Source: Aliiroseovarius sp. M344 (GTDB lineage: Bacteria; Pseudomonadota; Alphaproteobacteria; Rhodobacterales; Rhodobacteraceae). Taken from it: a stretch of 64,000 nt of DNA. The stretch spans positions 2,480,001 through 2,544,000 of the forward strand of contig NZ_CP081153.1 in assembly GCF_025140835.1 (NCBI RefSeq). The letters run 5' to 3'. Below the pieces are notes generated by a model. It searched no databases, was not told the origin of the DNA, and saw only the letters and a list, made by a program, of their open reading frames with translations. Position numbers and translations under genes: made by a program. Position 1 is the first letter of the stretch; every line of letters starts with the position of its first letter. Of the stretch, positions 17,656 through 22,573 are shown in pieces.

Positions 17656-17688
17656 TTGTGATCACACCCCAAAAAACTGTGATCACAA
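17656..17688 (-). promoter_or_regulatory. Paired TTGTGATCACAA-type palindromes upstream of sucC
   Basis: Two sites, 17656-17667 and 17677-17688, each contain the perfect core TGTGATCACA. Their centres are 21 bp apart, which is two helical turns. They lie 113-145 bp upstream of the sucC start, between it and the mdh terminator. A motif TTTAGCGCAAA (minus strand, 17636-17647) lies between them and sucC. The same arrangement occurs before sdhC. The GntR/FCD protein at 4726-5379 is the likely binder because its own promoter has the same palindrome. Confidence 0.7.
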
Positions 17689-17750
17689 AATAACTTTACC
17701 AGTGCAATTTCGCCCGAACATCGTGATTCTTAAGGCGCTTGGGCAGAACG

Positions 17751-17784
17751 AAAAAGGGCGCCCAACTTTCTGGGCGCCCTCTTT
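17751..17784 (-). terminator. Rho-independent terminator of mdh
   Basis: The stem TGGGCGCCC/GGGCGCCCA with a 6-nt loop is followed by five T on the minus strand. It lies 16 bp after the mdh stop. It separates mdh from the suc operon that follows on the same strand. Confidence 0.92.
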
Positions 17785-17800
17785 AAATCAGGTCGAAGGA

Positions 17801-18763
17801 TCAGGCCAACGAATTGTCGATACCTTTACAGGCCTCAACCAGGCCTTTGACGGCGTCGACAGATTTGTCGAACATGGCCTGCTCATCTTTGCTCAACTGA
17901 ATGTCGATAACCTTCTCGATGCCATTCGCACCGATAACGGTTGGAACACCAACATAGAAGCCGTCCAGACCGTAAGCACCGTCAACATATGCGGCACATG
18001 GCAGCACGCGTTTCTGGTCATTCAGGTAAGCCTGAGCCATTTCAATCGCCGACGCAGCCGGGGCATAGTAAGCTGAACCGGTTTTCAGCAGGCCAACGAT
18101 TTCTGCGCCGCCATCACGGGTGCGCTGAACAATCGCGTCCAGTTTTTCCTGACTGGTCCAACCCATTTCCACCAAGTCCGGCAGCGGGATGCCACCAACG
18201 GTCGAATAGCGGGTCAGTGGCACCATCGTGTCGCCGTGGCCACCAAGAACGAAGGCTGAGACGTCGCGCATAGACACGTCAAACTCAACCGACAGGAAAT
18301 GACGGAAGCGCGCCGAGTCCAGCACGCCAGCCATACCGACGACTTTCTGATGCGGTAGGCCCGAAAACTCGCGCAGCGCCCAAACCATGGCGTCCAGCGG
18401 GTTGGTGATACAGATCACGAACGCATTCGGCGCGTGCTCTTTGATGCCCTCGCCAACCGATTTCATAACTTTCAGGTTGATGCCCAGCAGATCATCGCGG
18501 CTCATGCCCGGCTTGCGCGGAACACCAGCGGTCACGATGCAGACGTCTGCGCCCGCAATACCTTCGTAGCTTGTGGTGCCCGACAGCGATGCGTCAAACC
18601 CTTCTACGGGGCCGGATTCAGCGATATCCAACGCCTTACCCTGCGGGATGCCATCAGCAATATCAAAGAGGACGACGTCGCCCATTTCTTTCAGTGCAGC
18701 AAGGTGAGCAAGGGTGCCACCGATCATACCGCTACCGATAAGCGCTATCTTAGGTCTGGCCAT
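17801..18763 (-). CDS. mdh: Malate dehydrogenase (LDH-like, NAD-dependent)
   Basis: This enzyme oxidises malate to oxaloacetate with NAD+ in the TCA cycle. It has 320 residues. The N-terminal NAD motif GSGMIGG is at about 11-17, with an acidic residue ending strand 2 (LFDIADG). The substrate arginine of the mobile loop is in [13 protein letters not shown] near 82-95. The catalytic histidine is in [12 protein letters not shown] near 175. GGAGATC precedes the ATG. It has its own terminator before the suc operon, so it is a separate transcript. The promoter region is shared with the divergent TauE/SafE gene. Confidence 0.96.
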
Positions 18764-18921
18764 GAGTGTGATCTCCGATCAGTTGTTTTCGGGCGCATGC
18801 GTAGTCCGAATATGGCGTTCGCGCAAGAGCGCTGCACTGCGGCGTGACGCGGTCCTTGCCTCTGAACCGCGTTCACGATAGCGCTAAAACACACATTTTC
18901 CAGCGGTTTGAGGCGCATTAC

Positions 18922-20654: not shown

Positions 20655-21203
20655 ATGACCATCCTGATCATCGGCATCGCCTTGTGGTACGGCGGGCACT
20701 TTTGGAAACGCGCCTTACCCGCGCGCCACGCAGCAATGGGCGACAAGGCGAAAGGAGTTTCGGCGCTAATCCTTCTTGCCGGCATTATCCTGATGGTGAT
20801 CGGCTACCGCAGTGTCGAAAGCTACGATTTGGTCGCTTATCCACCTTTCCTGAAACACATCAACAATCTGGCCATCGTGTTCGCGATCTATTTCATGAGC
20901 CCCGGACCATCGAAAGGCGCGCTGTTTTACAAGATGCGCCACCCGATGCTGACGGGCTTCATCATCTGGGCCGTGGCGCATATCTTGGTGAACCCCGATC
21001 TGGCGTCCATGGTATTGTTCGGCGCGCTGACGATCTGGGCGGTCGCCGAGATCGTCGTGATCAATCGGGCTGAACCAGAGTGGACACCAAACCCGAAAGG
21101 CCTCATCGCCAAGGATGGCATGTTCCTTGGTGCCTCGGTGGTTCTGACCCTGATCATTGGATTTATTCACGGGCTCATTGGCCCGTCGCCGTTCGGGATG
21201 TGA
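20655..21203 (+). CDS. NnrU-family membrane protein
   Basis: This 182-residue protein has about five or six hydrophobic helices and the NnrU signature KMRHPMLTGFIIWAVAHIL near residues 94-112. NnrU was first linked to nitric oxide metabolism near nnrR, and the family also includes isoprenoid-type methyltransferase-like membrane folds. Its biochemical role is unsettled. It lies 14 bp after mcl2 in the operon with mch. No nitrite or nitric oxide reductase genes are visible nearby, so a denitrification role is not supported by context. Confidence 0.82.
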   Translation: MTILIIGIALWYGGHFWKRALPARHAAMGDKAKGVSALILLAGIILMVIGYRSVESYDLVAYPPFLKHINNLAIVFAIYFMSPGPSKGALFYKMRHPMLTGFIIWAVAHILVNPDLASMVLFGALTIWAVAEIVVINRAEPEWTPNPKGLIAKDGMFLGASVVLTLIIGFIHGLIGPSPFGM

Positions 21204-21206
21204 GCC

Positions 21207-21410
21207 ATGAAACTGTATCGCCTGCTGACCGAAGACGACACGTCTGCCTTTTGCCATAAAGTGACCGCGGCCTTGAACAAAGGGTGGGAGTTGCACGGCG
21301 ACGCCGCCTATGCCGCTGATCCGACCACCGGAAAAATGCGCTGCGCGCAAGCGGTCGTAAAAGTCGTTCCGGGCGACTACACGCCCGACACCAAACTCGG
21401 AGATCACTGA
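21207..21410 (+). CDS. DUF1737 domain small protein
   Basis: This 67-residue cytoplasmic protein matches the DUF1737 pattern: MKLYRLLTEDDTSAFCHKVTAALNKGW-type start, then GWELHGD. The function is unknown. It starts 3 bp after nnrU, and its TGA overlaps the ATG of mch by one base, so it is co-translated with the ethylmalonyl-CoA gene. Small proteins of this family often sit beside acyl-CoA metabolism genes in Rhodobacterales, from memory. Confidence 0.8.
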   Translation: MKLYRLLTEDDTSAFCHKVTAALNKGWELHGDAAYAADPTTGKMRCAQAVVKVVPGDYTPDTKLGDH

Positions 21411-22444
21411 TGGCGAAAACCAATCCCGGCCGCTTTTTCGAAGATTACAAGCTGGGCGATGTGATCGACCACGCCGTGCCGCGCACCGTCGCCGAAGGGG
21501 AACGCGCGCTGTATCACGCGCTCTATCCCGCACGCCACGCGCTGTATTCCTCGGATGAATTTGCAGGCAGTTGCGGGTTAGAAGGGTCGCCCATCGACGA
21601 CCTGATCGCCTTCCACGTCGTGTTTGGAAAGACCGTTCCCGACATCTCGCTGAATGCGGTGGCCAATCTTGGCTATGCCGAAGGCCGCTGGTTGAAGCCG
21701 GTCTATCCCGGTGACACGCTGCGATCGTCGTCCGAGGTGATCGGGCTGAAACAGAATTCAAACGGCAAGTCGGGCGTAGTTTGGGTGCGCACGCGTGGTG
21801 TAAACCAAGTGGGCGAGCCGGTGTTGGAATATGTGCGCTGGGTCATGGTGCGCAAAAACGATCTGGACGCGCCAGCACCCGAAACCGTTATCCCGGACTT
21901 GAAAGGCACATTGAACGCCAGCGATCTGGTGATCCCAGAGGGGCTGTCATTCGAGGACTATGATTTCACCTTGGCCGGAGAGCCGCACCGCTGGGGCGAC
22001 TATGAAGTGGGCGAGAAAATCGACCACGTGGATGGCGTTACCGTTGAGGAAGCCGAGCATATGATCGCCACGCGACTGTGGCAAAACACCGCCAAAGTGC
22101 ATTTCGACGCGACGTTCCGCCCGGATGGTCAGCGCTTGATCTATGGCGGTCACGTGATTTCGATGGCGCGGGCCTTGTCGTTCAATGGGCTTGCGAACGC
22201 CCAGATGATCGTCGGCCTGAACGGCGGTGCGCATGCCAACCCCTGTTTCGCAGGCGACACGATCCGCGCATGGTCCGAGGTCTTGGACAAAGCCGACACC
22301 GACGCCCCCGGCGTAGGCGCTGTGCGCTTGCGCTTGGTCGCGGTGAAGCACGGGGCAACCGAGTTCGCCTTGAAGGGCGACGACGGCAAGTATTTGCCCG
22401 AGGTGATGCTGGATCTGGATTACTGGGCGTTGTTGCCCAAGTAA
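21410..22444 (+). CDS. mch: Mesaconyl-CoA hydratase (beta-methylmalyl-CoA dehydratase)
   Basis: This enzyme reversibly hydrates mesaconyl-C1-CoA to beta-methylmalyl-CoA in the ethylmalonyl-CoA pathway of acetate assimilation. Its 344 residues form a double hot-dog protein of the MaoC type. The first domain is at about 10-150 (FFEDYKLGDVIDH opening) and the second at about 180-340 (WGDYEVGEKIDHVDG opening, IYGGHVISMARALSFNGL core). Length and layout match the characterised Rhodobacter Mch. It is the last gene of the mcl2 operon and lies 250 bp before sdhC. Confidence 0.9.
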   Translation: MAKTNPGRFFEDYKLGDVIDHAVPRTVAEGERALYHALYPARHALYSSDEFAGSCGLEGSPIDDLIAFHVVFGKTVPDISLNAVANLGYAEGRWLKPVYPGDTLRSSSEVIGLKQNSNGKSGVVWVRTRGVNQVGEPVLEYVRWVMVRKNDLDAPAPETVIPDLKGTLNASDLVIPEGLSFEDYDFTLAGEPHRWGDYEVGEKIDHVDGVTVEEAEHMIATRLWQNTAKVHFDATFRPDGQRLIYGGHVISMARALSFNGLANAQMIVGLNGGAHANPCFAGDTIRAWSEVLDKADTDAPGVGAVRLRLVAVKHGATEFALKGDDGKYLPEVMLDLDYWALLPK

Positions 22445-22540
22445 TTTTGCCGTAACCGAACAGAAGGGCAAGCCCACGCTGCCACGCAGCATTTCGCGCA
22501 CCGTGTTTGATTTGATTTTTCGCGCAAATGCCGCCCATCC

Positions 22541-22573
22541 CTGTGATCACAAGATTTATTTATGTGATCACAA
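22541..22573 (+). promoter_or_regulatory. Paired TTGTGATCACAA-type palindromes upstream of sdhC
   Basis: Sites at 22541-22552 and 22562-22573 share the core TGTGATCACA and are 21 bp centre to centre, the same spacing as before sucC. They end 122 bp before the sdhC ATG. A TGTTAGCGCAA motif follows at 22591-22601, as before sucC. They are candidate operators of the GntR/FCD protein at 4726-5379. The gap 22445-22695 holds no gene. Confidence 0.7.

Follow-up and report, generated by a model that had tools for sequence, protein, structure and literature searches.

Organization of the locus

The stretch of DNA analyzed here, referred to as the window, comprises 64,000 nucleotides of the Aliiroseovarius sp. 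M344 genome and carries a GntR/FCD regulator gene along with two sets of tricarboxylic acid (TCA) cycle genes.

4726-5379, plus strand: GntR/FCD regulator, very probably AkgR (Pfam GntR and FCD, both above cut-off)
8086-9531, minus strand: lpd, dihydrolipoyl dehydrogenase (NCBIfam)
10302-11804, minus strand: sucB (NCBIfam)
11808-14795, minus strand: sucA, 2-oxoglutarate dehydrogenase E1 (NCBIfam)
14847-15812, minus strand: sucD (NCBIfam; the model match begins at residue 28-31, and the true start may be further in)
16350-17543, minus strand: sucC (NCBIfam model)
22696-23079, plus strand: sdhC (Pfam Sdh_cyt)
23480-25285, plus strand: sdhA (NCBIfam)
25298-26077, plus strand: sdhB (NCBIfam)

The original prediction described the first set as sucCDAB. 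All four genes are present, but their real order is sucC, an open reading frame (ORF) of 206 amino acids (15733-16353, minus strand), sucD, sucA, and sucB, with lpd further on. The ORF between sucC and sucD had no Pfam or NCBIfam match. The mdh gene, named by its NCBIfam model, is upstream of sucC on the same minus strand, and a TauE/SafE gene occupies 18844-19680, between mdh and sdhC.

Paired palindromes before sucC and sdhC

Five exact copies of the palindrome TGTGATCACA, whose half-sites abut with zero bases between them, are found in the window. None has a strand, and all are listed as putative operators.

4708-4717, no strand: single TGTGATCACA operator before the GntR gene (exact match)
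17657-17666, no strand: sucC operator, the nearer one (exact TGTGATCACA)
17678-17687, no strand: sucC operator, the further one (exact TGTGATCACA)
22542-22551, no strand: sdhC operator, the further one (exact TGTGATCACA)
22563-22572, no strand: sdhC operator, the nearer one (exact TGTGATCACA)

The centre-to-centre spacing is 21 bp in both the sucC pair and the sdhC pair, and the pairs end 113 bp before the sucC start codon (ATG 17543) and 123 bp before that of sdhC (ATG 22696). These copies confirm the earlier claim that palindrome pairs with 21-bp centre spacing precede two TCA operons. The gap of 113 to 122 bp given there had been counted from a 12-mer, and the one other intergenic copy that had been placed at the GntR promoter is the site at 4708-4717.

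How unusual is this arrangement? Markov models of order 2 to 4 predict 0.10 to 0.16 exact TGTGATCACA copies in the window, compared with the 5 observed. A looser 12-mer with two mismatches allowed is only mildly enriched (7 in the window versus 2.83 expected, with 3 of 100 shuffles as high). Across the whole genome, exact copies number 10 and the reversed control is absent; four of the five copies outside the window are inside ORFs of at least 130 amino acids. The fifth (C1:2819782; L035 4783) belongs to an exact, extended palindrome, TTTGTGATCACAAA, located between ORFs of that size, perhaps in a short ORF. Single sites with up to two mismatches number 1,507 per strand in this genome, versus 358 for the control. 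A genome scan for 21-bp pairs, which had been proposed as a check, returned only two places even with up to three mismatches allowed, namely those before sucC and sdhC (control, 0).

A probable AkgR regulon in a new organism

A likely counterpart has been described in Rhodobacter (Cereibacter) sphaeroides, where the GntR-family protein RSP_0981 is, we assume, the regulator called AkgR. RSP_0981 is predicted to control the genes of succinyl-CoA synthetase, succinate dehydrogenase, and 2-oxoglutarate dehydrogenase (PMC4344238, available text), and GTGATCAC is among the binding sites of what is termed “the transcriptional activator AkgR” (PMC6365646, available text). As far as these excerpts go, the likeness to the window extends to the GntR family, the target operons, and the GTGATCAC palindrome (PMC4344238, PMC6365646): the window's regulator has a GntR DNA-binding domain by Pfam, the GTGATCAC palindrome is present at the target promoters, and the pairs before sucC and sdhC point to sucCD, sucAB, and sdh as targets. 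The differences are the organism itself and the position of the regulator gene, which the RSP locus numbers suggest is on the sdh side in R. sphaeroides but which is on the lpd side here (PMC4344238, available text). The GntR/FCD protein of the window is very probably the AkgR of Aliiroseovarius sp. M344. Two protein searches with it showed no named C. sphaeroides sequence among the best 120 matches listed. Because published work already ties a GntR protein to these targets and GTGATCAC to AkgR, the core claim is not new; the regulator, its motif, and its targets have all been described, and the window presents a known regulon in a new organism.

The suggested comparison with AkgR and CceR thus favors AkgR, which the circuit matches in targets and motif (PMC4344238, PMC6365646, both as excerpted). 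CceR (RSP_1663), whose predicted targets in R. sphaeroides include mdh and succinate dehydrogenase, belongs to another family, LacI, and has another motif, [A/G/T]GTT N6-8 AAC[A/C/T] (PMC4344238, available text). Its regulon takes in sdh, 2-oxoglutarate dehydrogenase, and fumarase in R. sphaeroides but not in Paracoccus denitrificans (PMC11323563, available text). A third protein, PS417_07240 of Pseudomonas simiae, is a proposed binder of GTGATCAC and is 32% identical to AkgR; it differs in belonging to a deoxyribonate oxidation cluster, for which the available text describes one palindrome and no pair (PMC6365646).

Conservation of the pair in the Rhodobacteraceae

What this analysis adds is the paired layout, with its near-exact spacing kept across the family. 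The listings and excerpts covered by the literature search contain no mention of a paired 21-bp layout, and among the papers in which the motif letters occur, none is on this regulation by title.

The family survey covered 295 Rhodobacteraceae genomes, one per genus, with the centre spacing left free between 11 and 41 bp. An exact pair was present in 188 of the 295, and the reversed control in none. Among the 75 family pairs listed, a hand count gave spacings of 21 bp in 70, 20 bp in 4, and 31 bp in 1. With the spacing fixed at 21 bp and up to three mismatches allowed, the pair was found in 258 of the 295 genomes (control, 3 genomes). Outside the family the picture changes. A class survey of 385 genomes, five inside the family and 380 outside it, yielded an exact pair in only 3 of the 380, at 22, 24, and 22 bp and never at 20 or 21 bp; these are near chance level, as the reversed control reaches 2 genomes in the same set.

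Scanning a collection of 84,980 species gave at least 119 stretches, of which 80 were listed, with 81 places. Sixty of these places are before sucC and 14 before sdhC, and these 74 of 81 support the TCA-centered regulon that had been foreseen; of the others listed, 2 are next to mdh at the edge of the stored stretch and 5 are in other contexts. The spacing was 21 bp in 70 of the 81 places, 20 bp in 7, and 23, 24, 26, or 27 bp in 4. All spacing counts come from free-spacing scans only; some promoters had been fetched by the fixed 21-bp pattern. Pairs with two or three mismatches also occur in stretches without sucC or sdhC (L150, L151, and L152).

Distance from the pair to the sdhC promoter

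Does the pair keep its distance from the promoter as well as from its partner site? Conservation points to two boxes downstream of the sdhC pair in the window.

22630-22635, plus strand: predicted sdhC -35 box, GTGACT, 57 bp after the pair
22653-22658, plus strand: predicted sdhC -10 box, CTATTC

The sdhC and sucC promoters used for measuring distances were fetched because pairs were present in them, and duplicate promoters, short hits, hits starting beyond residue 30, and one sdhC promoter whose best pair had 5 mismatches (L171) were dropped. In 48 of the 60 distinct sdhC promoters, a [GT]TGAC box is followed by TA at the -10 distance, the remaining 12 giving no two-box call; under the same rule, shuffled sequences average 1.4 calls (largest, 6) and the sucC regions give 1 in 111. 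The predicted -35 box starts 57 to 59 bp after the pair in 37 of the 48 called promoters. The other starts are at 47 bp (1 promoter), 62 bp (1), 68 to 69 bp (3), and 77 to 79 bp (6). The promoter counted at 62 (L136) has an additional GTGAC at 57, and three promoters, rather than one, have a box at 47 if the -10 requirement is lifted. Nine of the 11 boxes off the main position are within 1.5 bp of a 10.5-bp lattice, where one third would be expected (p 0.0014), though this and related tests overstate the evidence because the genera are related. A quick tree of 48 SdhC rows puts a minimum of 10 changes on the position label, which is no more clustered than shuffled labels (as low in 53 of 200 trials); for the 77-to-79 class, the starred branches require 3 changes or more. 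The shifts are thus unlikely to stem from one event, with the caveat that support for the tree is weak.

With the two predicted boxes taken as the sdhC promoter, the transcription start would lie about 98 and 119 bp downstream of the site centres. For sucC, a T-rich element starts about 46 bp after the pair and the core promoter is not firmly placed. A scan for consensus promoters and terminators around the sucC upstream region found nothing, and a weak weight matrix gave a main peak at offsets of 41 to 43, minor peaks at about 31 and 22, and off-pattern ones at 54 to 58 and 63 to 66, all of which could equally come from A-tract periodicity.

These distances bear on the direction of control. 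The same GntR protein might instead bind the pairs and repress sucC and sdhC until an effector releases it, as many GntR/FCD regulators do, and position alone is no proof of activation. Yet direct blocking would have to act over a long distance, given that 57 to 59 bp separate the end of the sdhC pair from the predicted -35 box in most called promoters. Together with the description of AkgR as a transcriptional activator (PMC6365646, available text), this makes repression an improbable reading. Activation from upstream by cooperatively bound dimers, as originally proposed, is supported indirectly by the 21-bp spacing and the turn-wise sdhC promoter distance.

Which protein reads the pairs?

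A match to the window's regulator at an E value of 1e-70 or better is found in 265 of the 295 family genomes. A pair, defined for this comparison as exact at any spacing or at 21 bp with up to three mismatches, is present in 260 of the 265 genomes with the regulator versus 8 of the 30 without it (tabulated by hand). The 1e-70 cut-off was chosen after a gap between 1.2e-74 and 1.9e-61 had been seen; at the search's own 1e-30 the same table reads 264 of 275 versus 4 of 20. Fisher's test on the 1e-70 table gives 5e-22, which overstates the evidence in that related genera are not independent. The 8 genomes with a pair and no regulator match at 1e-70 stand against a strict link. Some of them are incomplete, and two (G114 and G209) are 98 to 100% complete. 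Some of the matches between 1e-58 and 1e-62, those in G033, G122, and G281, may be true orthologues. In another five genomes the regulator is present and no pair was found. The regulator is also present, at 1e-92 or better, in eight of the nine named genomes that have pairs; the exception, a metagenome-assembled genome labelled Robiginitomaculum (L193), gave no regulator match at 1e-30. In the class survey, every listed match with at least 73% identity comes from one of the five family members, with nonfamily proteins reaching about 32 to 41%.

Another GntR/FCD protein could bind the pairs in place of this one, for instance a paralogue in the same genome, 39% identical, at C1:993363-994022 (L297 7364-8023; also entered as C1:993390). 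Its neighbors resemble, by eye, putrescine transport and catabolism genes, and palindromes of the TTTGATCAAA type surround it. GATC-centered palindromes do occur beside related GntR genes, and one far genome has an exact TGTGATCACA pair. However, the paralogue's stretch and four from named genomes all contain exact TTTGATCAAA, which differs from TGTGATCACA by one base change per half-site, and none contains exact TGTGATCACA; the pair, moreover, co-occurs with the window's own regulator gene. This alternative is accordingly very unlikely. In one stretch (L296) the TTTGATCAAA copy is about 1.5 kb away from the paralogue gene. The far genome, from another family (L162 1501-1534), has its exact TGTGATCACA pair, spaced at 24 bp, between a 34% identical GntR gene and an ORF that looks by eye like an aldehyde dehydrogenase. 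The comparison of these palindromes supports a view of GntR/FCD proteins as probable readers of GATC-centered palindromes.

A Crp/Fnr-type factor is scarcely credible as the binder. Crp does use TGTGA and TCACA as half-sites, but with six bases separating them (TGTGA-N6-TCACA), and the half-sites here abut. R. sphaeroides, furthermore, is not predicted to have a CRP-analogous protein (PMC4344238, available text). The GntR protein of the window thus remains the favored binder, as first suggested, a role supported by the co-occurrence of gene and pair, the GATC-centered palindromes by related GntR genes, and the AkgR papers.

The regulator's own promoter

The single site before the regulator gene is set within a predicted promoter.

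4691-4696, plus strand: predicted -35 box of the regulator gene, TTGACC (conserved TTGAC position)
4714-4719, plus strand: predicted -10 box, CACAAT, which shares bases with the operator (placed by reading the sequence, with a 17-bp spacer after TTGACC)

Among 39 orthologous loci, the site is exact in 18 and has up to two mismatches in 24 (in an earlier set of 30 loci, 15 and 20, respectively), leaving 15 without such a site. None of 773 background stretches had a site with up to one mismatch, and 9 had one with two. Counted between starts, TTGAC precedes the site by 17 bp in 23 of the 24 regulator promoters that have one, and a -10 box placed at a 17-bp spacer would overlap that site. By eye, the stop codon of an upstream ygjP-like gene is part of this TTGAC in many loci, which could explain why TTGAC is present. 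In the window, the stop-codon TTGAC is separate (4674), and it is the second TTGACC (4691) that holds the 17-bp distance. The proposal that the single site serves autorepression is supported by its overlap of the predicted -10 box, but a recognizable site is absent from 15 of the 39 loci.

The proposed circuit

In the circuit that we consider probable, each TGTGATCACA would be bound by one AkgR dimer. At sucC and sdhC, the region upstream of the core promoter would hold two dimers, separated by two helical turns and facing the same side of the DNA, and from this position they would probably activate transcription. The akgR promoter would hold just one dimer, which would cover the predicted -10 box and probably repress the gene. 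Binding by this protein, cooperativity, activation, and autorepression are all steps that we infer from the arrangement of the sites. The name AkgR alone suggests 2-oxoglutarate as the effector.

We lean, by a modest degree, toward a more general reading in which a GntR/FCD protein activates two TCA operons through tandem operators whose spacings are set in helical-turn units across the family: 21 bp between sites (exceptions, 20 and 31 bp) and about 58 bp to the sdhC promoter, shifted in some lineages by about one or two turns. A single -10 site would repress the regulator's own gene, and one base per half-site would separate this system from that of the polyamine-cluster paralogue. If the family-wide layout holds, DNA sequence can show how sucC and sdhC are controlled in Rhodobacteraceae. 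The sdhC promoters, with their turn-wise shifts, would also offer natural variants for studying face-of-the-helix activation in the GntR family, whose better-known members are repressors.

Additional pairs in other lineages

A few genomes carry pairs before other genes. In one (G042, L132 about 1493-1524), a fumarase-C-type gene has a third pair in front of it, with one mismatch, and the regulon may accordingly be wider in some lineages. In another (G136, L112 1142-1182), an exact pair with the 31-bp spacing, about one turn over 21, precedes a TauE/SafE-family gene; in the same genome, a 21-bp pair after mdh precedes a gene resembling sucA by eye. In yet another genome, the gene that follows an exact pair encodes a class III aminotransferase.
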